Shown here piece by piece: positions 11,013-28,771 of a stretch of 51,682 nucleotides of DNA (position 1 is the first letter of the stretch; each line of letters begins with the position of its first letter). The notes beneath the pieces are model-generated. The model searched no databases and was not told where the DNA came from. It was given only the letters and a program-made list of their open reading frames with translations. The stretch is from the NCBI RefSeq assembly GCF_016652235.1, contig NZ_JAEPKU010000014.1, positions 1 through 51,682 on the forward strand, written 5' to 3'. Made by a program: the position numbers and the translations under genes. The DNA comes from Dysgonomonas sp. Marseille-P4677. Its GTDB lineage: Bacteria > Bacteroidota > Bacteroidia > Bacteroidales > Dysgonomonadaceae.

Positions 11013-11390
11013 TTAATTCGATGCACTACCACTGTTTAACAATAAATTACTTAATTTTCTTGAGGTACTTTTATCCATTAAATAAGTGAGACCTTCAATA
11101 CTGAAAAATTCCTTATCTTTATCTATAATTACGGAATTTTGATTCTTTTTTTTAAATATTAAAGTTTCTCTTGAAATAAATACAGCAGGACTTCTTTTTG
11201 ATAATTTAATCAAATTAATAATGTGATTTATTTTATCCCTATCAGTAATTACGATAGAATCAGTAACTGACGTTTTATAATAAACTTCATCAACCTCAGA
11301 AAATAATTCCTTTTCCATCTTTCCATTTGTTGTTATACATCCATACAGAAGACCTAAAAGCGACATCAAATATAAATATTTCATAATCAT
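11013..11390 (-). CDS. Lipoprotein, probable immunity protein for the Rhs toxin tip
   Basis: The 125-residue protein has a lipoprotein signal (MSLLGLLYGC). The rest is a small mixed alpha/beta chain I do not recognise. Its ATG overlaps the stop codon of the Rhs C-terminal gene (11387-11390), so the two are translationally coupled, and a terminator follows. A small gene coupled behind an Rhs toxin tip is usually the immunity gene. A periplasmic lipoprotein would fit a toxin that acts in the periplasm or on the cell envelope. Function is inferred from position only. Confidence 0.6.
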   Translation of the reverse strand: MIMKYLYLMSLLGLLYGCITTNGKMEKELFSEVDEVYYKTSVTDSIVITDRDKINHIINLIKLSKRSPAVFISRETLIFKKKNQNSVIIDKDKEFFSIEGLTYLMDKSTSRKLSNLLLNSGSASN

Positions 11391-12424
11391 TTTTCCTTTT
11401 CTCCCTTTAATCCCCCTCTAAAAGAATTGTCTATATTACTACCAGGATCGACTAATATCGTACCTGAAATATCCCCATTATCTACTTTTTTAGTAATATC
11501 TTTCCATAACTTATTTGGTGTTATGGATCTTATTAAGAATGTAAAGATATTTTCTTTGCCTAATTTTTTCTTAAAGACGGTTTTATGAAGTACCTCGCTA
11601 ACATATGTCGCACAATTAAAAGATTTTCCTTGATACTTATGCTTATTTGCATTCAAATAACTAGCTTTTTCGTGAGCTTGTTGATCTGTATCATAATCTG
11701 TATGCAACTGTAGAACACCTTCTTGCATAATATCTTCTTTAGGAATTCCTGTATCACTTAAAGGGTTATAAGGGTGTAGCTTTGTTAAATTATCACTAGT
11801 AAATTCAGATATGTCAGAAATTATAACACCGTCCTTTCCGGCATCATGCGATCTATATCAATCTACAGTCGATAATGCACCTTTTACTCCAGCCAAATTT
11901 ACTCCTTCTTGAGGCCAATTATCATAGTAGGTAAATGTCCCATTTGGAACCATGACCTCCTTTCCATCTATTGTAGTCTTTTCATAATTAGAAATTGCAA
12001 CTCCAGCATGACCTACTTGACCATTAGACGTCGTCCATATAATAATAAAAATATCTTTTCCATCTGGATCAATAAACTTGATCGGATTCTGGAAAGTATA
12101 AGCATATGTAGATATATTCGGATACTTCTCCTGTAGCGGGTCAGTACTTATCCATAGACTAATTCTTGGATCATAATAGCGTGCTCCATAATAGTATAGT
12201 CCTGTTTCTTCATCCAACTCTTTGGCATTGAAGAGATACGGAGTGTTCCAACGGTTATTTCTTTCTTCTATAAAGACTTCTCTAAACGGAACATACTCGA
12301 TATGCTGAACTACTTCGCCGTCTAAATTAGTAATTAGCGACGAACTATCCAAATGATCGGAGTGATAATAATACTGGAACAGTTCAGGATTGTCATTCTC
12401 TTGCGGTACGAATGATTTAGTCAT
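11387..12424 (-). pseudogene. Orphan Rhs C-terminal toxin, split by one in-frame TGA
   Basis: The frame runs 345 codons with a single TGA at codon 189 (11858-11860). Codons 1-124 are the end of an Rhs core (YYYHSDHLDSSSLITNLDGE, YYYGARYYDPR, then PDGKD), the usual junction with a variable toxin tip. The tip holds GHAGVAI (His 139) before the stop and FNCATYVSEVL (Cys 271) after it. His before Cys resembles permuted NlpC/P60 (LRAT-like) enzymes. The stop reads VD-stop-YRSHD and could come from TGG by one change. The core is cut off upstream where the methylase/helicase gene ends, so the rest of the Rhs protein is missing. The two halves may also be read as separate ORFs (11858-12424 and 11387-11728). 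Confidence 0.7.
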
Positions 12425-12458
12425 CGGTTTGTCATCACAGCAGAAACCACCTCCATTT

Positions 12459-15400
12459 TTAAATTCTCATCTTATAAGGCTGTTGCTCCTGCCTATTCTC
12501 CTCCGAATCAACTTTTCCAATTAAAATTCTATCCCTATTAGCATCAATAATATCCTTGATGCTCATGGGTTCGCCCGAACGAATAGAATTATCCGTTACA
12601 CTAACTTTAGGAGTAGAGTCTACAACCTGTGCTTCCTGCACAGGATCATCCTTTGTTTTGAGCGTTTGTAGAATTTGCCTGTCTAAAGTAATAAGTTGTT
12701 CTTTTAGGTCTTTCAATTCAGGATCTTTTTTGAATATCGAGTTTATAACCTCTTTGAGTATAGGTAGGTCTTTAGACAAACGCTCGTTATCGGTCTGGTA
12801 TTTCTCAATCAGTTTCGGAATACGCTCCAAAGCATTGAGAAAATTCATAGATGCCAATTTCGGATCAGTGGCAATATGACCATTATTGTAATTGTATTTG
12901 ATACCACCTTCTCCCTCAATAAAGAAACGGTTGTCTTTAAAAACAGAGCCTTCTTTTTGACTTTCCTCTGTTTTGACAAGCAACCTAAAGCCATAAAGTT
13001 CTCCAATCTTAAAATACTCGCCGTTGGTTCGGGCATTGTCTGAAAGTTGATTCAACTTTTCTCCGACTATTTTAATGTCATTGGAATTAATTCCCTCCAA
13101 TTGAATTGGATTAAGTTTATTCCCATCTTTATCCACCTGAACACGGGCATTGAAATCATCCCAGTCCTTTTGAATACGGCTAAGCATCTGGGTATTCCCT
13201 TCAATAGTGCGTGCACTGTCCTCAAACTTGAAAGTCGCCGAAGATTTACTTTTGATAAAGGCTTTTTTCTCACTCTCCAAAGCGTTGATTTTCTTTTCCA
13301 ATTTGGCTTTTTCCAACAGATCTGTATTACCCGAAAGAATAGCCACATACTCCGAAAAATTCATACCCGCACTTTCGTCCATACTGCCCTCATCAATGGT
13401 ACGGCTACCCATGCTGTTGTTCTTTAACTGATTGATAAAGGTCTGTTTGTTCTGCAATAGGTTAAACTTGTAAGAGTCCAAGCTCTTTTCGACTGCATAG
13501 ATTAATACATCTACCTTGTTATCGGCATATAGTTTGGCTATTTCATTACCTTTTCTGATTGCCCGACCATCACGCTGTTGCAAATCCGAAGGTCGCCACG
13601 GCGTATCTAAATGATGAATAGCTATGGCACGTTGTTGTGCGTTTACACCTGTTCCCAACATAGAGGTAGAGCCGAATAAAACACGAATACGTCCCTCATT
13701 CATCCCATCTATCATTGCTTTACGAGCCTTGTCCGTTTTAGCCTCCTGAATAAAGCGAACTTCATGGGCAGGAATGTTATGATCTTCCACCAGTTTACGC
13801 TTAATCTCCGAATAGGGATTCCATTCATTGGGCTTGTATGTTCCCAAATCAGAAAATACAAATTGTGTCCCTTTATACGAATTGTACTGATTGTAATATT
13901 CTGCAATTTTAGCAGCACAATGCGAAGCTTTGTTGTCGATATGATCGCCATAGTGCGGACTAATCATACGCATATCGAGCGACATCTTTCGGGCATAGTC
14001 GGTCGCAATCAACATCTTTGCCTTCTCTTCACTATCCGACAATGGGGCTCGTCCGAGTAGGGTGGCATCGCCACTCTTGGCGAACTCCATCAACTTTCCA
14101 ATAAATATCTCCTGTTGTGGAGTCGGTGGAATATTATACAGAACTTCGTTCTTCTCCGGTCTGTCAATACCAATATCCTTTGCTGTACGAAAATCTGTTA
14201 TCTCTGCATAAAAATTAGCCAACTCAGGAACTTTGATAAAATACCGGAAGCGTTCTTTCTGCACAATCTGATTGGTAACCGAGAACTCATAATCAGTCGT
14301 TTTCTTGGCATAGATTGCTGCCCAAGCATCGAAAGAATTGACACCCTGTTTCTCCAACTCTTTCGGACGTAAATATTTGAAGAGCAAGTAAAGCTCTGTT
14401 AAAGAGTTGGAAATAGTTGTACCCGAAAGAAATGTAGCACCTAAGTCTTTGCCTGTACGCTCTTGAATAGTACGCAAAGCAAAAAGCATATTCAAAGCTC
14501 GCTGACTGCCTTCAGGATTACCCAATCCCGCCACTCTATCGTGACGAGTGGTAAAGGTCAGATTTTTGAACTGATGCGATTCATCTACAAATAGATGGTC
14601 GATGCCCATCATCTTAAAATCGACTACGTCGTCTGTTCGATTTTTAATTTGGTCTGCTAATACACTTAGTTTTACTTCCAGATTATTCTTTCGTATCTCC
14701 AAGCCTCTCAGCATACGTTTAGATGCAGCTTTACCCGTCATTGATTGAAGTACCCGAAGGTTCTCCTCTACCGAATCCAATTCTTCTTGGAATATCCGCT
14801 GTTGCATTTCAGGTGATTGAGGTATTTTCCCGAACTGGTCGTGTGTTAAAATAATGGCATCCCAAGAATTATTCTTTATCTCGTTAAAAATCTTTACCCG
14901 TTTGGATGGTGTAAAGTCTTCTTTGCCGGGATAGAGAATCTTTGCATTCGGATAAGCTGTCTTAAAGGTATGGGCTATTTCGTGTACGTTGGCTTTCAGC
15001 CCCAATATCATCGGCTTATTAACCAATCCCAATCGCTTCATTTCATAAGCAGCAACACACATAATAAGTGTTTTTCCTCCACCGACCTCATGGTCTGCAA
15101 TACCTCCACCCATCAATTTCTGCATCCAAATACAATCCTTTTGACTCGGATAAAGGTCGGGTATTCCCAACCCTTTGAGATCTAAATCAGGAAAGGTTTG
15201 ATGTGAGCCGTCATACTGTGGACGGACATAACAATTGAACTTCTGATTGTATAAATCAGCTAACTTATTCTGAAAGTCGGACGATTGCTCATTGAGCCAG
15301 TTCGTAAAACCATTTCGTATTTCATCTATCTTGGAATTGGCAAGTTGTATGGCTTCCGAGTCGGCAACCTTTACTTTTTTCTGCTCTCCGTTATCATCCA

Positions 15401-17822
15401 ATACCTGAATAGTCTTGGTTATATTCGGAGTAGTGTTCAGTAACGCATTTTTCAATAAATGAATACCCGTGAATAATTGGCTCTCGCTTTGTACGGCAAA
15501 TTTTTCCCGAATAATCAGATTGTTACTGTTAGTCGATACATTAAAATCATCACGGGATGCGTAATATTCAATGTTTACATCGGCTTCAAATAGCTGTGAG
15601 GCATAGTCCCGATAGATTTGCATCGGTATCCATCGTTCCCCAAAGTTAAAATCAAGCTCGGCATACTGTATCGGTTGTGGCATTGCATCCTGTAAAGCTT
15701 TAAGTGAGATTTGTGCATGTTTGTCTTCGGGATTATTCAGTACGTATCGCTTTACCTGTGCTTCTTTCTCGACTACATTCCCTGCAATAAACTTATCACG
15801 AATCTCATAGTTTTTAATGAGTGGATTGAAATAGATCTGTCCCTCTAAATCTCGGATTATATCATCTCTATTTTGATTGTCCAACAAAGATGACATATAA
15901 TCCAATCGTATTTCTCCATATTTGTTGAGAGAAGCAACCAAAGCCTCGTGCGAGGTTTCGGCGTGTTTAATTTCATTGGGATTAAAGGCAACAGGTTTGT
16001 GAAAAATATCCGCTTTCTGAAATTTCCCATTCACCGAACGTTCCAAAGAAAGTATCTGTACACCTCCTGTATCCATCTTGAAAATATCCAGATTCTTCTT
16101 GTCGTTGAGATTTCCGTATCGTTTGATAAAATTATTATAGACGATATTCAGGTTGCTTCGAAGCGAAGCGTGTTCTGTCAGATGTTTGGCTTCGTGATTA
16201 TATAAAGTGTGATAGATATCCCGAATCTCAATATAACGGCTGATTTTGGCTTTCTGTACAAAATCTATATCCATCGGTTGAAACTTCGCTCCATCCCGAT
16301 AACGTTCTTTCAAGTAACCGACTTGTCCCAAGTCTTCAACCAGAGAGCCTTGCTTGTGGTATTCTTGTAATTCTCCGCTATAGGATCGAAGCTCCATAGG
16401 TAATTTGGGAGCTTCCTCTTTAGGAGAAATTTTCTTTTCTTCTTTGTCTTTGGAAAACAGACTAAGTTGAACAGGCTTTTGATTAGCATTGACTTTTCGT
16501 TTCTTACCTCTGCTTGGTTTAATCTGTGTTCGTTCTTCCTGTGAAAAACCGAGCAGATCGTATAAGGACATTGTTGATTGAGAAACATCCAATTCGATAG
16601 TTTGCTGTTTTTGGGGGACAGGCTCTAGTTTCGGTACTGAAGGAATACTGATCTTTTGAGCAGCTACAGTATGTGTATTGTACAAATCCAAACTTATATT
16701 TTGTTTAAAATCAGCCTGTAACATCTTACTTAAGTCCGTTGCAATTCTCTCTATTCCTCCATCATGTAGAAATACTTGCGCAGGTCTGCCGTAGGGATCT
16801 GTATCTATAAGCCCTCTGGTATGGACCACTCGCTCTGTATTATTGAAATAACTATTGGTAGTTACATTTGAAGTAATTTCAGATATTGTCAAAAATTTCT
16901 TCTCCGATTCTGTTAATGCCTGTTTGTTTGTGTTCTTTTGAAGAATGATTAAATCGCTACCGACTTCCGTTCCTGCATTATCTACAAACAGATTATTTGG
17001 TAAACGAACGGCAGATACAAGGTTGGTATGATCCATCAGCCACTTTCTTACGGTCTGATTATTTGGCGAGTTTAATACCCCTTGCGATGTGATGAATGCC
17101 AATACGCCACCATCACGCAAAGTCTCCACTCCTTTGATAAAAAAGTAGTTATGAATAGCTCGTGTAGCATCCCTATGTAGTTTATCGGTTTTCATAAATT
17201 CCGCATCAAAGACACTCATTTCTCCAAAGGGGATATTAGAGGTTACGACATCGAAATAGTTGTTGTAGCGACTTTCAATCGTTTCAAAACCTTCAACTAA
17301 AACTCTATCATCCGGATTGATACGAGAAAGTATTTTACCTGTGAGCAGATCTTTTTCAAAGTTTGTAATCTCTGCTTTTAAATATCGAGAAGAAAATGCA
17401 GAAGAAAATGCTCCCATTCCTGCGGATGGGTCCAATAAACGATTTACTTCGAGTTTGCTTTCTCGAAAAGCATCCGATATGGTTTGTACGACTAAAGGTG
17501 GGGTATAAAATGCAGATAGCACAGAATTCTTGATGCTATTAAAATATAGCTTGTATTCCAGTGCTGAATTGGTGTTTTCTCTAATAACCTGATGCAGTTC
17601 GGCAACCATCGGGAAAAGGTCCAGTTCCGACTTTGCCCAATGTACTGTGTCTGACAAACTATTTACAGGATTGAGCACACATTTGAGTCCTCCAAAACCT
17701 GAATATTGCATCAATACATCCTGTTCATATTCTGTAATAGTCCTTTGTTCTCTTTCAAGGCTAAGGACAATCTTGATAGCATCAATATTGGCTCTAAGAT
17801 GAGCTTTTTTATTATAGCTCAT
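12459..17822 (-). CDS. Giant N6-adenine methylase / SNF2-like helicase
   Basis: The 1787-residue protein joins an N-terminal adenine methyltransferase (SAM motif [11 protein letters not shown] at about 129-139; catalytic NIPFG at 196-200, a variant of NPPF/Y) to a C-terminal SF2/SNF2 helicase (Walker A VGGGKT near 912-917, DESH near 1077, motif [15 protein letters not shown] near 1411-1423). QLSLF at 452-456 matches the beta-clamp binding motif. This architecture is standard in Bacteroides ICEs and resembles phage P1 DarB, an antirestriction protein; protection of transferred DNA is plausible but unproven. It overlaps the DUF1896 gene by 11 nt and ends the three-gene minus-strand operon. Confidence 0.85.
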
Positions 17823-20016: not shown

Positions 20017-20024
20017 TATCTTTG
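20017..20024 (+). promoter_or_regulatory. Promoter of the WYL regulator gene
   Basis: TATCTTTG is an exact TAnnTTTG match 28 nt before the ATG at 20053; the -33 region is poor (TTTC near 19986). The TGCAG-N5-CTGCA palindrome found before hsdM and the HIRAN gene is absent here. Confidence 0.6.
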
Positions 20025-20052: not shown

Positions 20053-21069
20053 ATGGCAACTAATAAACATGCTATGATACGCTATAGAGCACTAGACAAA
20101 TGCTTTAGTAATTTTGGACGAAAATTTTTCATTAACGACTTGATAGAAGCATGTGATAAAGCTATATATGAATATAGTGGTAGTGATATCGGTATCAGTC
20201 GAAGACAAATTTTTGAGGATATAAAATACATGGAAAGTGATGAAGGGTGGAGTATACCTTTGGAAAGATTAAACGAAGGGCGTAAGATATATTATCGATA
20301 CGAAAATTCCTCCTTTTCAATCAATCAGCAACCATTAAGCCCAATGGAAATGGACCAGCTCAAAGATACAATTTATATGTTAAATCGTTTTAGTGGTATG
20401 CCGCACTTCGACTGGATGTACGAGATATTAGCTAGATTCGAAACTTCTTTCAATCTAAAAGGAGACACTTCTAATGTAGTAAGTTTCGAAGAGAATCCGG
20501 ATTTGAAAGGCTTGTATTTTTTCTCAGACCTATTTAATCATATTATTAATAAACAAGTTATCAGGATTACATATAAACGCTTTTCTAAACCAGCTTATGA
20601 AGCTGTATTCCATCCTTATCATCTCAAACAATATAACAATCGTTGGTTCCTTTTTGGTTATAATCCTGAATTTAAAGATAAATATCCAATAACAAGCTTA
20701 GCTTTAGACAGAATAGAACAAATAAAAACTATTCAAGAAAAATATATTGAGAATGATAGTATAGACTTTTATGACTACTTCTATGATGTAGTTGGGGTTT
20801 CAGTACCTGAGAACCAAGAAAAAGAAAGAATTATACTAAAAGCAAACAACAAAGCTTACCATTATATAGTGACAAAACCTATGCATGCATCTCAAAAAGT
20901 CTTAAAATATGATGGAGAGATTGCAACTATTGAACTCAATTTGATTATAAATTACGAATTTGAAACACTGCTACTTGGATATGCAAATGAATTGGAAATT
21001 ATTGCGCCCTTATATTTACGAGAAAAAATTAGGGAGAGAGCCGACAAAGTAATTTCAAAAAATTCTTAA
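20053..21069 (+). CDS. WYL-domain transcriptional regulator
   Basis: The 338-residue protein starts with a winged-HTH region (about 1-90; ISRRQIFEDIKYMES is the recognition part). A WYL domain follows (VFHPYHLKQYNNRWFLFGYN near residues 190-212) and then a C-terminal WCX-like part. WYL regulators of the BrxR/CapW type sit before phage-defence operons and usually repress them until a ligand, probably a nucleic acid, binds. This gene lies 62 bp before hsdM on the same strand but has its own promoter. It is the best candidate for binding the two TGCAG-N5-CTGCA palindromes at the hsdM and HIRAN promoters. Confidence 0.85.
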   Translation: MATNKHAMIRYRALDKCFSNFGRKFFINDLIEACDKAIYEYSGSDIGISRRQIFEDIKYMESDEGWSIPLERLNEGRKIYYRYENSSFSINQQPLSPMEMDQLKDTIYMLNRFSGMPHFDWMYEILARFETSFNLKGDTSNVVSFEENPDLKGLYFFSDLFNHIINKQVIRITYKRFSKPAYEAVFHPYHLKQYNNRWFLFGYNPEFKDKYPITSLALDRIEQIKTIQEKYIENDSIDFYDYFYDVVGVSVPENQEKERIILKANNKAYHYIVTKPMHASQKVLKYDGEIATIELNLIINYEFETLLLGYANELEIIAPLYLREKIRERADKVISKNS

Positions 21070-21072
21070 CAA

Positions 21073-21106
21073 TGCAGTTTAGCTGCACAAATAAATCCGA
21101 TATTTG
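21073..21106 (+). promoter_or_regulatory. hsdM promoter with TGCAG-N5-CTGCA operator
   Basis: TGCAG (21073-21077) and CTGCA (21083-21087) form a perfect inverted repeat with a 5-nt spacer. Nineteen nt after its last base stands the final G of GATATTTG (21099-21106), a near -7 element, so the operator covers the -33 region. The layout is identical to 28124-28157. A protein bound here would block RNA polymerase. Confidence 0.65.
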
Positions 21107-21131
21107 CACTAGAAATAATTAAAACTAAAAT

Positions 21132-23171
21132 ATGACGCCACAAGAATTAGCTCAGATGATATGGAGCATCAAGGAAATAATCAGGGATGACTATAATGAT
21201 AAAAACGTAGATGAGGTTATCCTTCCCTTTACACTATTACGCAGGCTCGACTGCGTAATGGAAAGCTATGCCGATAAAGTAAAAAAAACTATTGAGCAAC
21301 TTCCTGAGCAGATGAAGGAAATGAAAGAAACGGATGAGGATAAATACAACTCATTCCTTGCCAGAATACTCAAAACCAAAAATATATCTTTCTATAATAT
21401 TTCGGGCTTTTCTTTGGCACATATGTTAACTAATCCGAAATCGTTAGGGGATAATTTTAAAACATACCTTGAGGGATTTAGTGAGAATGTGAAAGAAATA
21501 CTTTACAACTTTACAGGAGGGAAAGAGAAAGGACTAGGTCCAATATACGAAACTCTATTACGAAAAAATCTTCTTTTTAATGTAACTCAAGAATTTGTCA
21601 CAAAAGCTGACTTACATCCCGAAAAAGTAGATAATCATACGATGGGAACTGTCTTTGAAATTATCATTCGTATGTCGAAAGAGAGTACAAATGAGACCGC
21701 AGGTCAGTATTATACCCCACGAGAGATAGTTAACCTATTGGTTAGCCTTGTCTTTACGGGACAAGAAGAATTAATGAAAACCCCTGGGCAACACTTTTCC
21801 ATCTATGACCCTTGCTGCGGTACGGGTGGTATGCTTACAGTTGCCAAAGAGTATATGCAAAGTCATTCAGGTAGAAATGATGTCAAAGTATTTCAGTATG
21901 GTCAAGAAATCAACGAGCAGACTTATGCTATCTGTAAATCAGATATTCTGATGAAAGGGGATGAAGCTGATAACATCAAGCTTGGTAATACAATATCTGA
22001 CGACAAGTTTCCGGGGAAAACATTCAGTTATATGATTACCAATCCTCCTTTTGGTGTAGATTGGAAAAAAGATAAAGGATATGTAGAAAATGAAGCACAA
22101 AACCCAAGGGGTCGATTCTCGGCAGGATTGCCCGATAGCAGTGATGGTTCACTTTTGTTTCTAATGCATATGATAAGTAAAATGGACGAAGGAGGATCAC
22201 GTATAGGTATCATTCTCAACGGATCGCCTCTTTTCAATGGAGATGCAGGAAGTGGATGGAGTAATATTCGCAAGATGTTGCTTGATAAAGATCTACTTGA
22301 TACGATTGTTTCACTACCTAAGAATCTATTCTATGGTACTGATATATCTACATACATGTGGATTCTCGATAATAAAAAACCAAAAGACCGAGAAGGTAAA
22401 GTATTGCTTATAAATGGGGCTCAATCTCAATATGCGTCCTTGCTTTCCCGTAGTCTCGGTAAAAAACGTTATGAGGTAAATGCTACTGGAATGAAAGAAC
22501 TTCAACGCTTTTACAGAGAATATAAAGATGCCTATCATGACTTTGGAGATGGAGAATTCATACAAGTAGCCAAACTAATGGATAAAGAAGATTTTCTGTA
22601 TACCAAAATAACAGTAGATAGACCCCTCAGACTAAAATACGAGAACTTAGAAAATAAGCTTCAAGACTTTTTGGAAAACACAAAAATGTCGGCAACCGAA
22701 AAAGATAAAGCAAAACAAATACTTCAACTGGTAAAAAAGGAGAGTCCGAAAACTCCATTGAATGATGAAGAGTTTTTCAATTATTTAGCTAAAAATAAAG
22801 TGAAACCAACAGCAGGACTGATCAAGAAACTACGAAGCTCTATTGGCGAAGTAGATGAAACTTTTGCTGAAGTGCTTGAATCTCCATTTGATCAAACATC
22901 GCCGTTTATCCCCGATACAGACTTACGAGATACCGAAAGCATACCATACAAACAAGATATAGAGACATACTTTAAGGAAGAAGTATTAAAGTTTGCACCT
23001 GATGCTTGGATGGACAGAAGTAAAGATAAAATAGGTTGCGAATTTCCATTTACCAAGCTGTTTTATGTCTATAAACCTTTACGAACTACCCAAGAAATTT
23101 GGGAAGAGATAATGACCCTCGAAAAAGATTTGGACAAGTCGCTAATGGATATAATGGAGGGTGAAGTATGA
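21132..23171 (+). CDS. hsdM: Type I restriction-modification methyltransferase HsdM
   Basis: The 679-residue subunit has the HsdM N-terminal helical domain (MIWSIKEIIRDDYNDKNVDE) and the N6-adenine methylase core: SAM motif DPCCGTGGML at 226-235 and catalytic NPPF at 304-307. The C-terminal part is longer than in small HsdM proteins, with a helical region that would contact HsdS. It should methylate adenine at the site recognised by HsdS and form the M2S and R2M2S complexes. It is followed by hsdS with a 4-nt overlap. Transcription likely depends on the palindrome-covered promoter just upstream. Confidence 0.95.
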   Translation: MTPQELAQMIWSIKEIIRDDYNDKNVDEVILPFTLLRRLDCVMESYADKVKKTIEQLPEQMKEMKETDEDKYNSFLARILKTKNISFYNISGFSLAHMLTNPKSLGDNFKTYLEGFSENVKEILYNFTGGKEKGLGPIYETLLRKNLLFNVTQEFVTKADLHPEKVDNHTMGTVFEIIIRMSKESTNETAGQYYTPREIVNLLVSLVFTGQEELMKTPGQHFSIYDPCCGTGGMLTVAKEYMQSHSGRNDVKVFQYGQEINEQTYAICKSDILMKGDEADNIKLGNTISDDKFPGKTFSYMITNPPFGVDWKKDKGYVENEAQNPRGRFSAGLPDSSDGSLLFLMHMISKMDEGGSRIGIILNGSPLFNGDAGSGWSNIRKMLLDKDLLDTIVSLPKNLFYGTDISTYMWILDNKKPKDREGKVLLINGAQSQYASLLSRSLGKKRYEVNATGMKELQRFYREYKDAYHDFGDGEFIQVAKLMDKEDFLYTKITVDRPLRLKYENLENKLQDFLENTKMSATEKDKAKQILQLVKKESPKTPLNDEEFFNYLAKNKVKPTAGLIKKLRSSIGEVDETFAEVLESPFDQTSPFIPDTDLRDTESIPYKQDIETYFKEEVLKFAPDAWMDRSKDKIGCEFPFTKLFYVYKPLRTTQEIWEEIMTLEKDLDKSLMDIMEGEV

Positions 23172-24502
23172 AGCGATATCCTGAATATAAAGACAGTAGT
23201 ATTGAATGGATCGGAATGATACCGGAACATTGGGAGGTAAGGAAAATAAAAACCTTTAGTCCTGTAAAACGTGGAGCTTCTCCTCGTCCAATAGATAATC
23301 CAATATATTTTGATGATAATGGGGAATATGCATGGGTACGTATTGCTGATGTTACAGCAAGTGAAAGATACCTTACAAGTACAACTCAAAATTTATCAGA
23401 ACTAGGGAGTTCATTAAGTGTAAAAAGAAAGCCTAATGATTTCTTCTTGAGTATTGCAGCAACTGTTGGAAAGCCGATTATAACTAAAATTAAGTGCTGT
23501 ATCCATGATGGTTTCGTATGGTTTCCTAAATTAAAAATGAACCCAGAGTATTTGTATTATATTTTCACATCGGGGCAACCATATTTAGGGCTAGGAAAGA
23601 TGGGTACACAGTTGAATCTGAATACTGAAACAGTAGGAGGTATATCAATACCTGTTCCTAATGATGAAGAAGTAAATCAAATTGTCTCTTTCCTCGACAA
23701 AGAAACGACCCGAATCGATAATATAATAGCTACACGCAAAAAACAAATCGACCTGCTGAAAGAATTAAAGTCGTCTATCATCAGTCGTGCCGTCACCAAA
23801 GGGCTAAACCCCGATGTCGTGATGAAAGACTGCGGTATCGAATGGATTGGAGAAATACCGGAGCATTGGGAAGTGAGAAAAATTAAAAATATTATAACTC
23901 TCCTAACGGACTACGATGCTAATGGTTCTTTCTCAGATATAGCAAAAAATACAAATATAAATAATGGAAATCCTTATGCTTGGATGGTTAGGGCTACTGA
24001 TCTTGTTAATAAAAGGTATGGAATTGTAGAAGGAAATAACTATTGTGATATAGAAACTTATAAATATCTAAAAAAATCATCTTTAAAACCGTTTGACCTT
24101 TTAATCGCTAAAAGGGGGGAAATAGGTAATGTTTACTTAGTTCCTGACTATAAATCACCAATGACACTAGCTCCAAATACATATCTATTAAAGCTTAATA
24201 CATCTATTATATCAAGCTATTATTTGTTTTTTGTTTTAAGTTCTAATATTGGTAAAGAACAATTAAAATTAAACAATAAATCAACAGCTATTGGAGCATT
24301 ATATAAAGATGACGTAAAGTCAATTTATGTATCTCTTCCATCACTATCCGAACAACAAGAAATAGTCACCTATATCGAAAATAAAACAGCCAAGATAGAT
24401 ACTAGCATTGAAAAATTTCAAAAACAAATAGATTTGTTAACTGAATATCGTTCGTCACTAATTACCGAAGCAGTAACGGGAAAGATAGACGTAAGAAGCT
24501 GA
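23168..24502 (+). CDS. hsdS: Type I restriction-modification specificity subunit HsdS
   Basis: The 444-residue protein has two target recognition domains, each opened by the same block (IEWIGMIPEHWEVRKIK at about 13-29 and IEWIGEIPEHWEVRKIK at about 225-241). Each is closed by a helical spacer (DKETTRIDNIIATRKKQIDL; ENKTAKIDTSIEKFQKQIDL). It would set a split DNA recognition site. Its ATG overlaps the hsdM stop. The two halves are direct repeats, and no second hsdS fragment or recombinase lies next to it, so shuffling of specificity is not indicated. Confidence 0.95.
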   Translation: MKRYPEYKDSSIEWIGMIPEHWEVRKIKTFSPVKRGASPRPIDNPIYFDDNGEYAWVRIADVTASERYLTSTTQNLSELGSSLSVKRKPNDFFLSIAATVGKPIITKIKCCIHDGFVWFPKLKMNPEYLYYIFTSGQPYLGLGKMGTQLNLNTETVGGISIPVPNDEEVNQIVSFLDKETTRIDNIIATRKKQIDLLKELKSSIISRAVTKGLNPDVVMKDCGIEWIGEIPEHWEVRKIKNIITLLTDYDANGSFSDIAKNTNINNGNPYAWMVRATDLVNKRYGIVEGNNYCDIETYKYLKKSSLKPFDLLIAKRGEIGNVYLVPDYKSPMTLAPNTYLLKLNTSIISSYYLFFVLSSNIGKEQLKLNNKSTAIGALYKDDVKSIYVSLPSLSEQQEIVTYIENKTAKIDTSIEKFQKQIDLLTEYRSSLITEAVTGKIDVRS

Positions 24503-24534
24503 TAAAAAGTAAAACTTGAAAAATTTAAACTGAT

Positions 24535-27500
24535 ATGACTTACACAACCAATAATCTGAATGGGCCTAACGAAGCCTATTTGGAAAACCTTATCACTTCC
24601 TATTTAGCAGATAGTCCCTTGTACAATCAGCGTAAGGCGAGCGATTTCGATATTGCTCGCATGTGCGATCTAGACATGTTACAACGCTTTATAGAAAAAG
24701 GACAACCCAATGCATGGAATAAATTGATCGGACGCTTTGGCGACAATGCCATGAATGAGGTTGTAAAAGAATATAACAAACGCTTGGATAATGGTATAGG
24801 TTTGCTCAAAGTGTTGCGTGAAGGTTTTACCTTGCAAGGCATAAAAATCAAACTTTTGCAATTCAAGCCAGACCAACAAAAGAACCTGCCCTTTGTAGAG
24901 TTGTATCAGAAAAACTGTTTCTCAGTAGTTCGCCAGATGCGTTATTCAAATTCAGGGAATGATCGTACCAATGAACTTGATTTAGTAATACTGATCAATG
25001 GTATTCCTTTTCTAACTTGCGAGCTTAAAAATGAATTTACAGGACAAAATATTGTGAATGGGATGACTCAGTATCGTACCAGTCGCGATATGAACAATCG
25101 ATTTTTGCGCAATTGCTTAGTTCATTTTGTGATCGACAACAATCGAGTAATGATGACTACCAAGCTCGCTAATGAAGATACACAGTTCCTACCTTTCAAC
25201 ATCGATACCGAAAATCCTATCGTTGAAGGAGATTATGCGACATCCTATATGTGGAAAGATATATTTCAAGCAGATAGTTTGCTAAATATATTACAAGACT
25301 TTATAAAGCAATATATTCCACGTAGCGATCTGAAAAAGCGTGTAGTCACTATTTTTCCTCGTTATCATCAGTTGCGTTGTGTTAGACGTATTATGAGCGA
25401 TGTTAAAGAAAAAGGCATTGGACACAATTATTTAGTACAGCATAGTGCAGGATCGGGCAAGTCGAAAAGTATTGCATGGCTGGCACATCAGCTTAGCGAC
25501 TTATTTGACAACGAAGACAAACCTATATTCGACAGTATAATTGTTGTAACAGACCGTATAGTATTAGACAAAGCCATATCTGACGAAATACACGATTTCG
25601 AGACCGTTGCCGGAGTAGTGAAATCGGTACAGAAAGGCTCTCAAAAACTAGCTGATGCCTTGGAGAAAGGCTATCGAGTCATTGTGACTACTATCCAAAA
25701 ATTCGGGAATGCTCGAAAGCACTTAGACGAACTTAGAGGTAGCCGATTTGCTATTATTATTGATGAGGCTCATAGTTCGCAAAATGGAGAAAATGCTAAA
25801 GACCTGAAACTTACACTAACAGACAAAGACTTACTCCAATCTATTGTTGATAAAGGTGATCCGGATATTGAGAACGACTTCGATCGTTTGATTAGCGAGA
25901 TACAAGCAGCACGACAAAATATGCCGCATATTTCTTATTTTGCATTTACAGCAACCCCAAAAGAACAGACACTAAATCTATTCGGACATAATGGCGAGGC
26001 ATTTGATGTTTACTCTATGAGACAAGCCATTGAAGAAGGTTTCATCATAGATGTTTTAGAAAACTATATCACTTTCAAGTCGTTATTTGAGCTTGTAAAT
26101 AGAGAACAAGTACCTGACGAAAATCAGGAAGAGTATGATAAGAAAAAAGCTCTTCGTTTGATGATGCAATATGTAAACGATAACCCGTATGTTATTACTT
26201 ACAAAGCCAATATGATGCTCAATCATTTTATGACTAAGACGATTCATAAAATTGAAGGTAAGGCTAAGGCAATGGTAGTTACCAGTTCCCGTGCCCATGC
26301 TGTGCGATACAAGCAAGCTTTGGATCAGCTGATCAATGAAAAATATAATGGACAGATATCTACCTTAGTAGCTTTTTCGGGGACAGTAGAGATCAATGAA
26401 CATAAATATACTGAAGAAAATATGAATGGTTTCGGTATTAAGGACGCTGCAATTCGTGATAAATTTAAGGAAGACCATTGCAGAATACTTATTGTTGCCA
26501 ATAAATTTCAAACTGGTTTTGACCAACCCCTTCTGCACACCATGTTCGTAGATAAACAACTCGGAGGTGTTCAGGCTATACAGACATTGAGCCGTTTAAA
26601 TCGTTGCTATACAGGTAAGAAAGATACGATGGTAATTGATTTTGTGAATGAGCAAGACCAGATACAAAAAGCCTTTCAGCCTTATTATCAAACAACTCGT
26701 TTGAGTGAAGAAGCAAATACTCAACAGTTATATGATTATAAATTGGAGATTGATAATTATAAGGTATTTGGGACAAATCAGATTGAAGAGGTCATAGCCG
26801 TATTGATGGATAAAAATCGAAATCCGGAAGAACTTTCTCCATTTTTTCGTTCCTTGGTACAAGATCACGTTGAACCGATGGAAAAAGCAGAGCAAGCCAT
26901 ATTTCGTAAGCAAGTTAATCGCTATGTTAGACGTTATGTATTTTTATCGCAATTAATGACATTTATAGATCCTGAACTGGAGAAGTATTATCTATTTTGC
27001 AAGCTTTTATATAAATTCTTGCCATATACTAAAGATACACTACCATTGGATGTACTAGAAAGAATTAATCTGGATAAGTTTAAGATAGAAGAACGGGAAA
27101 ATGGTTCTATTTTATTGGAAGAAGAGGATGGAAAATTGGGTATTAGTGATGCAACTATAACAAAAACAAATGTAGTGGAATTTGCTACGTTACATCAACT
27201 ACTAGAGGATATTAATGAGCCTTATGCAGGATTTTTAGAAGAGAATGATAAACTAATATATTCTCTATTATTGGAAGTACTTGCTGACAAAGAGATTCAG
27301 GAGGCATTTAATGCTCAAAACACAGTTGATATCCTGATAGAATTAATAAAGGATAAATTTACAACAAAGAGCATTGAAAAGATGAGTCAGTATTTTAGCC
27401 TGATGGATGTAATGTCTTCCAATCAAGCATTTTCTGAAACATTTTTTAGAAAAGCATTTGAGTTCTTAGCAGCTGCTACCATGAAAGGGAATCGTCCCGA

Positions 27501-28059
27501 TTATGATGAAGAAAAACTCAAACAGCTCATGTATGATAATCTGGTTGAAGAGTTTTCGGAATTAGCTGGAGTCACATATAGAGAGTTAGAAGAAGTTATT
27601 GACTGGTTATTCAAAATTTTCAATGCTACTACAGTAGAAAGTTTAGATGGACTAAATGATACATTGAAAGATACTTTCAATAATCTATACAGATCTGAAA
27701 ACAGAGATTTGGATCTGCAAATTTATTTCCAAACTTTAGTAACAAAATATGAAGCTTTTTTAAGAAAGATATATTATATGCGAGAGCATAAAGAACTAGA
27801 ATCTGAAAGTCGCACATCTGGGTTAGTCCATGTCGTTCAACAGTTTGCTGATATTCAAAAGTTATATAAGACCACAGATGAAAAACTTTCCAATATGCAT
27901 GCATATTATAATATGCTATATCAGTGGAGAAATGACCAAGCTCATATGTCTCCGATACTTAAAACTGAAGAGTTAACCCCAGCTCTTCATGCTATAGCTG
28001 TCATGTATGTATACGCAGCGATGGTAAACGCTACTGATTTGGAGATTAACGGATATTAA
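24535..28059 (+). CDS. hsdR: Type I restriction endonuclease subunit HsdR
   Basis: The 1174-residue motor subunit has an N-terminal PD-(D/E)XK nuclease (NELDLVILINGIPFLTCELK, with Asp and ELK near residue 163). An SF2 translocase follows: Walker A HSAGSGKSKS near 303-312, DEAH near 409, FTATPKEQ near 463 and a second RecA domain with TGFDQP. A long helical C-terminal part would bind the methylase complex. It ends the hsdM-hsdS-hsdR operon, 32 nt after hsdS, and a strong terminator follows. All key motifs are present, so the system looks active. Confidence 0.95.
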   Translation: MTYTTNNLNGPNEAYLENLITSYLADSPLYNQRKASDFDIARMCDLDMLQRFIEKGQPNAWNKLIGRFGDNAMNEVVKEYNKRLDNGIGLLKVLREGFTLQGIKIKLLQFKPDQQKNLPFVELYQKNCFSVVRQMRYSNSGNDRTNELDLVILINGIPFLTCELKNEFTGQNIVNGMTQYRTSRDMNNRFLRNCLVHFVIDNNRVMMTTKLANEDTQFLPFNIDTENPIVEGDYATSYMWKDIFQADSLLNILQDFIKQYIPRSDLKKRVVTIFPRYHQLRCVRRIMSDVKEKGIGHNYLVQHSAGSGKSKSIAWLAHQLSDLFDNEDKPIFDSIIVVTDRIVLDKAISDEIHDFETVAGVVKSVQKGSQKLADALEKGYRVIVTTIQKFGNARKHLDELRGSRFAIIIDEAHSSQNGENAKDLKLTLTDKDLLQSIVDKGDPDIENDFDRLISEIQAARQNMPHISYFAFTATPKEQTLNLFGHNGEAFDVYSMRQAIEEGFIIDVLENYITFKSLFELVNREQVPDENQEEYDKKKALRLMMQYVNDNPYVITYKANMMLNHFMTKTIHKIEGKAKAMVVTSSRAHAVRYKQALDQLINEKYNGQISTLVAFSGTVEINEHKYTEENMNGFGIKDAAIRDKFKEDHCRILIVANKFQTGFDQPLLHTMFVDKQLGGVQAIQTLSRLNRCYTGKKDTMVIDFVNEQDQIQKAFQPYYQTTRLSEEANTQQLYDYKLEIDNYKVFGTNQIEEVIAVLMDKNRNPEELSPFFRSLVQDHVEPMEKAEQAIFRKQVNRYVRRYVFLSQLMTFIDPELEKYYLFCKLLYKFLPYTKDTLPLDVLERINLDKFKIEERENGSILLEEEDGKLGISDATITKTNVVEFATLHQLLEDINEPYAGFLEENDKLIYSLLLEVLADKEIQEAFNAQNTVDILIELIKDKFTTKSIEKMSQYFSLMDVMSSNQAFSETFFRKAFEFLAAATMKGNRPDYDEEKLKQLMYDNLVEEFSELAGVTYRELEEVIDWLFKIFNATTVESLDGLNDTLKDTFNNLYRSENRDLDLQIYFQTLVTKYEAFLRKIYYMREHKELESESRTSGLVHVVQQFADIQKLYKTTDEKLSNMHAYYNMLYQWRNDQAHMSPILKTEELTPALHAIAVMYVYAAMVNATDLEINGY

Positions 28060-28084
28060 TTTATATATACATAAATAGTTCTAA

Positions 28085-28119
28085 AGAGATTATTCGAAAG
28101 AATAGTCTCTTTTTTTTTA
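28085..28119 (+). terminator. Terminator of the hsd operon
   Basis: AGAGATTATTC pairs perfectly with GAATAGTCTCT around a 4-nt loop (GAAA), followed by a run of nine or more T. It separates hsdR from the HIRAN gene promoter, so shared control of the two cannot come from read-through. Confidence 0.9.
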
Positions 28120-28123
28120 TCTG

Positions 28124-28157
28124 TGCAGATAGACTGCATAATAGTGGATCATCTTTG
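28124..28157 (+). promoter_or_regulatory. HIRAN-gene promoter with TGCAG-N5-CTGCA operator
   Basis: TGCAG (28124-28128) and CTGCA (28134-28138) form the same palindrome as before hsdM, with a different 5-nt spacer. The last G of CATCTTTG (28150-28157) again lies exactly 19 nt after the palindrome. The ATG follows at 28191. Confidence 0.65.
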
Positions 28158-28190: not shown

Positions 28191-28529
28191 ATGAAAAATC
28201 AATTTTATGCTACATTTTATATTGCCGGATTTACTTACTGGAATGGCTTAGAAGCAATAGAATCTATACGTGTGGGTACAAAGCTTTTACTTGAAGCAGA
28301 ACCTACAAATGGATTTGACCCCAACGCTGTAAAAATTATGTATGATAATATTATGTTAGGTTACATCCCTAGAGAGGAAAATGAGGAAATATCTAAATTT
28401 TTGCAGTTGGGACACAACAACTTATTTCACGTATTTATCAATCGGATAAATCTTGAGGCTCATCCAGAAAAGCAAATCAGTGTTGTTGTACGGATTATTG
28501 ATAAAAATACAGCTGTAAAGGATAATTAA
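28191..28529 (+). CDS. HIRAN-domain protein
   Basis: The 112-residue protein is essentially a single HIRAN domain: FYIAGFTYWNG, then GTKLLLEAEPTNGFDPNAV, then IMLGYIPREENEEISKFL. HIRAN domains bind DNA ends or damaged DNA; in eukaryotes they occur in HLTF and Rad5, and in bacteria often as small proteins near nucleases or helicases. It lies just after the restriction operon behind its own promoter with the same palindromic operator as hsdM. A role in handling DNA ends linked to restriction is an attractive guess. Confidence 0.8.
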   Translation: MKNQFYATFYIAGFTYWNGLEAIESIRVGTKLLLEAEPTNGFDPNAVKIMYDNIMLGYIPREENEEISKFLQLGHNNLFHVFINRINLEAHPEKQISVVVRIIDKNTAVKDN

Positions 28530-28603: not shown

Positions 28604-28771
28604 ATGAGAGCACCGATAGGTACTACAGCAACTACAGGACAGAAATGCCCTGAGAGTGGAGTGTGGAAAGTTGTAGGAACTCCTACAACGACAGCGCCAA
28701 TAGCTAAGGGAAACACGATGCCTCCATATGGGGGAAAAGGGGTTACTTGGAAGCTTATCCAGTATGCTTAA
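28604..28771 (+). CDS. Small YjzC-like protein
   Basis: From the ATG at 28604 the product is 55 residues: TGQKCPESGVWKV, a Thr/Pro-rich link, IAKGNTMPPYGGKGVTWKL. The pattern (T-G-x-x-C-P-x-S-G near the start, K-G-N-x-x-P-P and a closing W) resembles the small YjzC proteins of Firmicutes, whose function is not known. It has one Cys only, so no zinc ribbon. It lies 74 bp after the HIRAN gene and may be co-transcribed with it. An in-frame GTG at 28562 is possible but less likely. Confidence 0.55.
   Translation: MRAPIGTTATTGQKCPESGVWKVVGTPTTTAPIAKGNTMPPYGGKGVTWKLIQYA

Follow-up and report, generated by a model that had tools for sequence, protein, structure and literature searches.

The window analysed here, a 51,682-nt stretch of contig NZ_JAEPKU010000014.1 (positions 1 to 51,682) from Dysgonomonas sp. 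Marseille-P4677, carries a restriction cassette in which two promoters share one palindrome, TGCAG-N5-CTGCA; this palindrome, its promoters and the WYL-family regulator encoded beside them are our subject. The cassette lies among conjugative-transposon genes (RteC, a TraG P-loop protein, TraM, a MobA-type relaxase, a YWFCY/TraG coupling protein and a tyrosine integrase) of an element that we take to be of the CTnDOT type, and it reads, all on the + strand, WYL regulator, hsdM, hsdS, hsdR, terminator, HIRAN gene, 55-aa protein. The regulator (20053-21069) is a 338-aa transcription factor with predicted winged helix-turn-helix (wHTH), WYL and WCX domains (Pfam WYL 7e-11, WCX 7e-7), and the -7 element of its gene, recognized from sequence, is TATCTTTG at 20017-20024. 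It is followed by a putative 21-bp operator (operator 1, 21070-21090; core palindrome 21073-21087) over the -33 position of the hsdM promoter, the -7 element GATATTTG of hsdMSR (21099-21106), hsdM (21132-23171; N6_Mtase 9e-61, HsdM_N), hsdS (23168-24502; Methylase_S) and hsdR (24535-28059; HSDR_N, SWI2_SNF2, T1R_D3-like). An intrinsic-terminator-like hairpin with a 13-bp stem lies 3′ of hsdR (28083-28112; computed fold of 28070-28125, -18.3 kcal/mol, z -5.4) and is followed by a T run. Beyond it, operator 2, likewise putative and 21 bp long (28121-28141; core palindrome 28124-28138), covers the -33 position of the HIRAN promoter, whose -7 element is CATCTTTG (28150-28157). The HIRAN gene encodes a stand-alone domain protein of 112 aa (28191-28529; Pfam HIRAN 6e-11), and 75 nt 3′ of it lies the gene for the 55-aa protein (28604-28771), which is perhaps part of the HIRAN transcript.

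These two exact palindromes are the only copies in the window, and 100 dinucleotide shuffles of the window yielded none. We define the gap as the number of nucleotides between the palindrome end and the TTTG of the -7 element; it is 15 nt at both sites, with 11 nt between the palindrome and the 8-nt -7 box. A preliminary description of this DNA, made from its letters, had reported both palindromes, each ending 19 nt ahead of the final G in the -7 element and lying over -33, as well as a terminator between hsdR and the HIRAN promoter and a WYL-gene promoter that lacks the palindrome. All of this held, as did, by Pfam, its assignments of WYL/WCX, HsdM, HsdS, HsdR and HIRAN; the WYL gene's own promoter contains no gap-15 site with up to two arm mismatches allowed. 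The 4.73 Mb assembly holds four copies of the palindrome, namely the two in the window and one each in contigs C213 and C248. The latter two were set aside as chance occurrences, since both lie within open reading frames (ORFs) and have no TTTG at the right spacing; the ORF around the C248 copy looks like an XRE-type regulator.

The preliminary description had let its proposal depend on conservation of the palindrome in homologous loci. We collected loci around relatives of the WYL protein (designated by L and a number) from named genomes (best 80 of 391), 101 family genomes, 393 order genomes and, for six of them, viral contigs; the palindrome is conserved among them and follows the WYL lineage. 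Across these loci and the window, own-genome copies included, there are 44 exact palindromes, and 37 of them have TTTG at gap 15 on one strand, whereas any other gap has TTTG in at most two cases. Seven exact palindromes lack the gap-15 TTTG: the two own-genome copies elsewhere, one cut by a contig end (L032), two with an altered box at gap 15 (TGTG at L072 9354, TTTA at L074 9976), one with TTTG at gap 14 (L098 9953) and one with no TTTG nearby (L105 5921). Relaxing the arms added 80 further gap-15 sites with one mismatch and 30 with two; with two mismatches, each other gap had about eight. Sites with zero or one mismatch at gap 15 number 114 over the loci of 130 distinct WYL proteins, and none occurs in reversed sequences. 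The simpler pattern TGCA-N7-TGCA-N15-TTTG was counted 115 times (114 distinct) in 88 of 131 loci (1.61 Mb). Because backward-pattern and reversed-sequence controls alter dinucleotide content, we added 20 dinucleotide shuffles of all 131 loci; each gave zero or one such match, six in sum. The spacing is equally sharp, with TTTG after TGCA-N7-TGCA in 115 cases at gap 15 as against 3, 5, 3 and 0 at gaps 13, 14, 16 and 17. A second, smaller excess of TTTG appears at gap 28 (13 cases, 13 nt past the -7 TTTG; all gaps other than this and 15 have 0-6).

The 114 distinct sites give the consensus YTRTGCA-N7-TGCAYAR-N8-TAnnTTTG. A purine (R) precedes TGCA-N7-TGCA in 112 of 114 sites and a pyrimidine (Y) follows it in 113, while the -7 box has A at its second place in 96 and T at its first in 72. 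The element is a 21-bp site in a 7-7-7 layout, with 7-bp halves (YTRTGCA and TGCAYAR) around a 7-bp spacer. The two window sites had been described as having identical arms and differing spacers; the identity of the arms stands, but the spacer among relatives is not free: it is polar and ATAGA-like. The left arm coincides with the zone in which the other promoters of these loci show an excess of TTTG -33 boxes. In five loci (L059, L068, L088, L092 and L094) one palindrome stands between divergent HIRAN and WYL genes with TTTG at gap 15 on both sides; as its sequence reads, this is a symmetric bidirectional promoter.

The presence of the element tracks the WYL lineage. A site with zero or one mismatch accompanies 16 of the 18 distinct WYL proteins at 50% identity or more and 54 of 65 at 45-50%, falling to 13 of 20 at 40-45% and 5 of 27 below 40%. 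By placement (the classes overlap), 48 WYL proteins have the site at the promoter of their immediate 3′ neighbour; 21 have it before a divergent gene, 15 farther downstream, 16 at other places in the locus and 5 at the WYL gene itself. Among the 103 distinct proteins at 40% identity or more, 20 lack such a site: L032 and L037 stop at a contig edge (the former keeps its exact palindrome), 11 show a changed half-site and/or one TTTG change at the same spacing (L044, L046, L054, L061, L076, L090, L092, L095, L105, L106 and L114), and a scan near the WYL gene was empty in seven (L057, L086, L113, L118, L120, L131 and L132), of which L086 has a two-mismatch site in the relaxed-arm scan. On a tree of 129 WYL proteins, with 97 motif carriers under a looser motif rule, the motif label changes 13 times against a mean of 29 in shuffles, the tree having been built by a quick method that warns of long branches meeting at the motif-less clade. 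That clade comprises 17 proteins (support 100; L008-L020, L023-L025 and L027) and includes the paralogues on contigs C93 (L023) and C234 (L027) of the same genome. Residue 52, in the predicted third helix, is Q in 93 of 97 motif carriers and T in 17 of 17 members of the motif-less clade, next to an invariant R51. We read the flanks of these 17 relatives for an alternative palindrome at the same place and saw some GCGTA-like repeats with no consistent spacing. Plasmid records (best 20 of 21) hold WYL relatives at about 42% identity or less.

The same association holds genome-wide. Among the 393 order genomes, the pattern TGCASN5STGCAN15TTTG occurs in 20 of the 24 with a close WYL protein (a match at E<=1e-68; tallied by hand from two tables) and in 48 of the 369 others (Fisher p 3e-13). 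We rechecked 20 chosen from these 48 and found a WYL protein at E<=1e-40 in five and none at that threshold in 15; in one of the five, G189, the site stands directly beside the gene for the more distant WYL protein.

The genes that the element precedes are varied. After deduplication, 113 sites with zero or one mismatch led to 102 different first genes of at least 60 aa (five sites gave none), and the 97 that are not WYL genes were scanned; because ORF calling was mechanical, a few of these first genes may be misassigned. Within the first 25 of 45 Pfam families, the matches include N6_Mtase (33), HATPase_c (16), RVT_1 (11), HIRAN (9), TBP-TOTE (7), HisKin-conflict (4), DUF2130 (4) and AAA_15 (3); in L089, the one case inspected singly, the N6_Mtase and HATPase_c matches fall in one protein. 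PADLOC matched up to 33 of the 97 to its type I methyltransferase model. Individual representatives gave matches to defence reverse transcriptases, PDC-M16A/B (TOTE-like) and NsnB/AriA-like ATPases. In L066 the second gene encodes a viperin (pVip), and in L068 the WYL gene is followed by a type IIG enzyme. The site thus marks unrelated defence operons, AAA/OLD-like ones among them. The methylation-associated defence system (MADS) was considered as well, as 27 of the 97 first genes match the mad2 model; we took these for general methyltransferase matches, and a search of open-licence papers for such a system with a WYL protein found none.

HIRAN genes stand out among the targets by their constancy. 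All 11 HIRAN homologues in the WYL loci and the window (window, L028, L029, L030, L036, L059, L068, L088, L092, L094 and L111, the last masked by a false ORF and recovered with tblastn) are the first gene after a gap-15 site; at L092 this site has two arm mismatches against TGCAG/CTGCA and exact TGCA halves. The five loci with divergent HIRAN genes (L059, L068, L088, L092 and L094) are close kin and, belonging to one WYL clade, are not independent. Nine more distant HIRAN relatives (27-45% identity), found among 395 class genomes, lack a site within the examined flanks of roughly 3 kb. L029, from Parabacteroides, repeats the arrangement of the window with a type I system that has an HsdM of 28% identity; the HIRAN site is perfect there, and the site at the hsdM promoter is degenerate (CTATGTGGATGTGTTGCATAG-N8-TACCTTTG) with the same geometry. 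The order WYL-site-HIRAN also occurs in L030 (Capnocytophaga) and L036, where blastp finds no HsdM, HsdS or HsdR homologue in either locus. PADLOC matches to the 37 other ORFs of these two loci are mostly for single ORFs, chiefly one AAA protein that we read, from its sequence, as RecF, and the first 25 of the 57 families matched include no restriction model. Since L030 and L036 keep regulator, site and HIRAN without the restriction genes, gene order indicates that HIRAN is part of the WYL module, a partner of its regulator and not of restriction, and the restriction genes look like exchangeable cargo. The preliminary description had joined restriction genes and HIRAN in one regulon: their link through the site stands, and the tie of HIRAN to restriction does not. 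Nor did its inclusion of the 55-aa gene hold up. A site precedes that gene in two places only, the window (behind HIRAN) and L033, where one site stands before hsdM and another about 330 bp upstream of an 89% identical copy; seven relatives elsewhere have none. The gene thus appears at most weakly linked to the regulon, an occasional passenger, and the label YjzC-like for its product is that of the preliminary description; the protein has no Pfam or NCBIfam match at E<=0.01.

Some further features of these loci deserve mention. The L068 enzyme (11056-14655, +), an MmeI-like type IIG restriction-methyltransferase, has an IS200-like Y1 transposase domain match at residues 617-722, between its methyltransferase parts, and relatives in L059 and L088 (two ORFs in the latter). 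A conserved gene of 64-65 aa lies under the site in L066 (9678-9869, -), L078 (9671-9862, -) and L074 (9662-9856, -); it heads a viperin operon in L066 and L078, with a protein of about 310 aa of no assigned family and, in L066, an LRAT-like protein too, and it heads another operon in L074. A family of about 388 aa (L042, 6375-7538, and 22 relatives) is usually encoded directly behind a methyltransferase-cluster gene under the site, and the one member scanned had no Pfam, NCBIfam or PADLOC matches. Within the conjugative element of the window, 12459-17822 (-) encodes a 1787-aa protein with Eco57I-type methylase and Helicase_C/SNF2 matches.

To place the regulator among known WYL proteins we compared folds, because its sequence found no PDB chain at E<=0.01. 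The AlphaFold2 (AF2) model has a predicted local distance difference test score (pLDDT) of 82.5 and a predicted template modelling score (pTM) of 0.54; its top PDB fold match is DriD (1e-14), and DriD and PafBC rank above BrxR and CapW. In the linker, which in DriD forms a three-helix bundle touching RNA polymerase, the model has helices at 97-111 and 120-132, with a mean pLDDT of about 50-64 over residues 91-140. DriD is a homodimeric activator of the Caulobacter non-SOS DNA damage response (PMC12340889; PDB 8tp8, 9pfv). It too joins wHTH, WYL and WCX domains in one chain of similar length (about 330 aa for the protein here). Its consensus ATACGAC-N7-GTCGTAT, like the site predicted to be bound by the WYL protein here, is 21 bp long with 7-bp halves and a 7-bp spacer, overlaps -35 at one distance from -10 (PMC12340889) and may stand in a divergent promoter arrangement. 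DriD does not regulate its own gene; here, own-promoter sites are absent from the window and present in 5 of 130 WYL loci. The two differ in their half-sites (TGCA here, ACGAC in DriD), in sequence (about 13% identity), in promoter type (Bacteroidota -7/-33 promoters here) and in targets, which here are defence operons and HIRAN. PafBC, a mycobacterial activator (PMC11804915), shares the WYL/WCX fold; it acts at sigma domain 4 and the -35 region on a single-stranded DNA (ssDNA) trigger, features that we can only predict for the WYL protein. Unlike the single gene and palindrome here, PafBC is a heterodimer that contacts one -26 motif through one subunit, and blastp of the window gives one WYL ORF, with no second one as in a PafB + PafC pair. 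SiwR, a mycobacterial activator of DinB-like genes (PMC10693628), also uses a palindrome in the promoter of an adjacent operon, but that palindrome lies between -35 and -10 and its targets are different ones; SiwR responds to genotoxic stress and binds ssDNA, as is predicted for the protein here. BrxR and CapW, repressors of BREX and CBASS (PMC9122601, PMC9122588), resemble the present case as WYL regulators adjoining diverse defence systems with a palindromic operator (predicted here). Their operators, however, overlap -10 (CapW) or lie downstream of the predicted -10 (BrxR R-BOX1; PMC9122601, PMC9122588), whereas the palindrome here is 11 nt upstream of the -7 box; BrxR has an 11-5-11 bp layout, their chains are shorter (266-290 residues in PDB), and they are autoregulated, whereas the WYL gene of the window has no operator at its own promoter. 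Repression, proven for them, is not what we expect here. Searches of open-licence papers for WYL with BrxR/CapW, WYL with Bacteroid* phage defence, and HIRAN with WYL or ssDNA showed none on this regulon among the papers listed.

A WYL-linked defence regulon is, judged from the sequences, well supported. The element, its spacing, its link to the WYL lineage and its target types were computed; beyond these, we infer binding, activation, an ssDNA signal and a role for HIRAN on ssDNA ends or forks. Both palindromes would be operators of the WYL protein encoded at 20053-21069, which would sit as a homodimer on the 21-bp site, with a 7-bp half-site on either side of the 7-bp spacer. The site would stand in for the -33 box, its distance from the -7 element being exact, so that the dimer brings RNA polymerase to an otherwise weak promoter and serves, as DriD does, as an activator and not a repressor. 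We favour this DriD-like mode because of the fixed spacing, the -33 position, the 7-7-7 layout, the rarity of autoregulation sites and the predicted fold. If DriD and PafBC are a guide, the inducer may be ssDNA that arises through damage, phage infection or breaks made by restriction. Such a signal, of DNA damage or of infection, is plausible because ssDNA activates PafBC (PMC11804915) and DriD (PMC12340889) and is bound by SiwR (PMC10693628), because a CapW structure with ssDNA exists (PDB 9c5g, by its title) and because the HIRAN domain of HLTF binds ssDNA and forks. In the window the predicted regulon would consist of an hsdMSR transcript and a HIRAN transcript, the latter perhaps including the 55-aa gene. 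Across Bacteroidota, RTGCA-N7-TGCAY followed by a TAnnTTTG-like box stands as a portable element before many unrelated defence operons and, recurrently, before a gene for a stand-alone HIRAN protein. Taken whole, with WYL operators, a DriD-like activator, an ssDNA signal by analogy, a two-transcript regulon and a portable element, this is the explanation that we think probably correct.

Several observations weigh against activation by the WYL protein, and some of them serve other explanations. TTTG is found in the -33 zone of 1 of 43 site promoters and 41 of 286 others, but this evidence for a weak -33 box, the counterpart of the poor -35 element at DriD-type promoters, is partly circular, as the arms themselves occupy that zone. 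Fold in common with DriD does not show activation; BrxR and CapW have the same fold, the full-length root-mean-square deviation of the model to DriD is 11-14 Å because domain orientation differs, and the model has its lowest confidence where DriD's three-helix bundle would lie. The five loci with a site at the WYL gene's own promoter, joined by L092 at two mismatches, depart from the DriD pattern, and in L066, L074 and L078 the WYL gene starts near the site of a divergent gene and might be affected by it. In three of the 20 WYL genomes with the motif (G139, G192 and G443) it is confined to contigs other than that of the WYL gene. A repressor of the BrxR/CapW kind, as the preliminary description had it, would hold hsdMSR and HIRAN low by occluding the -33 region until a ligand releases the dimer. 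BrxR and CapW do repress defence operons, a need to restrain restriction and abortive systems is conceivable, a site with its centre near -33 would be sterically suited to blocking sigma, and a repressor would conserve the spacing too if part of the palindrome were the -33 box. We nevertheless consider repression unlikely, though a serious contender: CapW and BrxR sites lie on or beyond -10, while the site here covers -33 with a position that hardly varies, as in DriD; nearly all exact palindromes (37 of 44) have their own -7 element at gap 15; own-promoter sites are rare; and the fold ranking puts DriD and PafBC first.

The view that some other regulator, or an alternative sigma factor, uses the palindrome and that its link to the WYL gene is passive gains some weight from the genomes that have the pattern and no close WYL protein, since their 48 of 369 exceeds the backward-pattern control of 10 of 393 and 15 of the 20 rechecked lack even the more distant match. 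Against such a passive link, the presence of the palindrome goes with the WYL lineage and with one residue in the predicted recognition helix, it lies in the promoter directly 3′ of the gene for 48 WYL proteins, and the nine HIRAN relatives elsewhere lack it; we judge this explanation improbable. Bipartite spaced sites also resemble type I targets in form, and many target operons encode methyltransferases, so TGCA-N7-TGCA might be a recognition sequence of restriction-modification enzymes whose methylation the promoter senses. The element, however, also stands before dissimilar HsdM/S sets and before operons that do not begin with a methyltransferase gene (reverse transcriptase, TOTE-like, viperin operon, HIRAN), which makes a methylation sensor very improbable. 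Chance or a local repeat deserves next to no credence, as the counts refute chance and the shuffle and reversed-sequence controls lie at or near zero.

If the WYL protein is indeed a DriD-like activator, a wider picture can be drawn, which we offer tentatively and hold somewhat less likely than its opposite. An ssDNA-triggered, DriD-like WYL lineage would serve as a phylum-wide defence alarm, in which the 21-bp site and the -7 box form a portable promoter cassette. Operons placed beside it (restriction, reverse transcriptase, TOTE-like, viperin, OLD-like) would join a damage-induced regulon, and HIRAN, possibly binding 3′ DNA ends or forks, would be its recurrent partner.

The switching of defence genes is understood in few systems. 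The operator described here predicts from sequence alone which operons in many Bacteroidota share one type of regulator, and it offers a promoter-based way to find new defence candidates, such as HIRAN, DUF2130 and the 64-aa gene before viperin. If activation is true, restriction and other systems would be induced by DNA damage and not relieved from repression, a logic opposite to that of BrxR and CapW.

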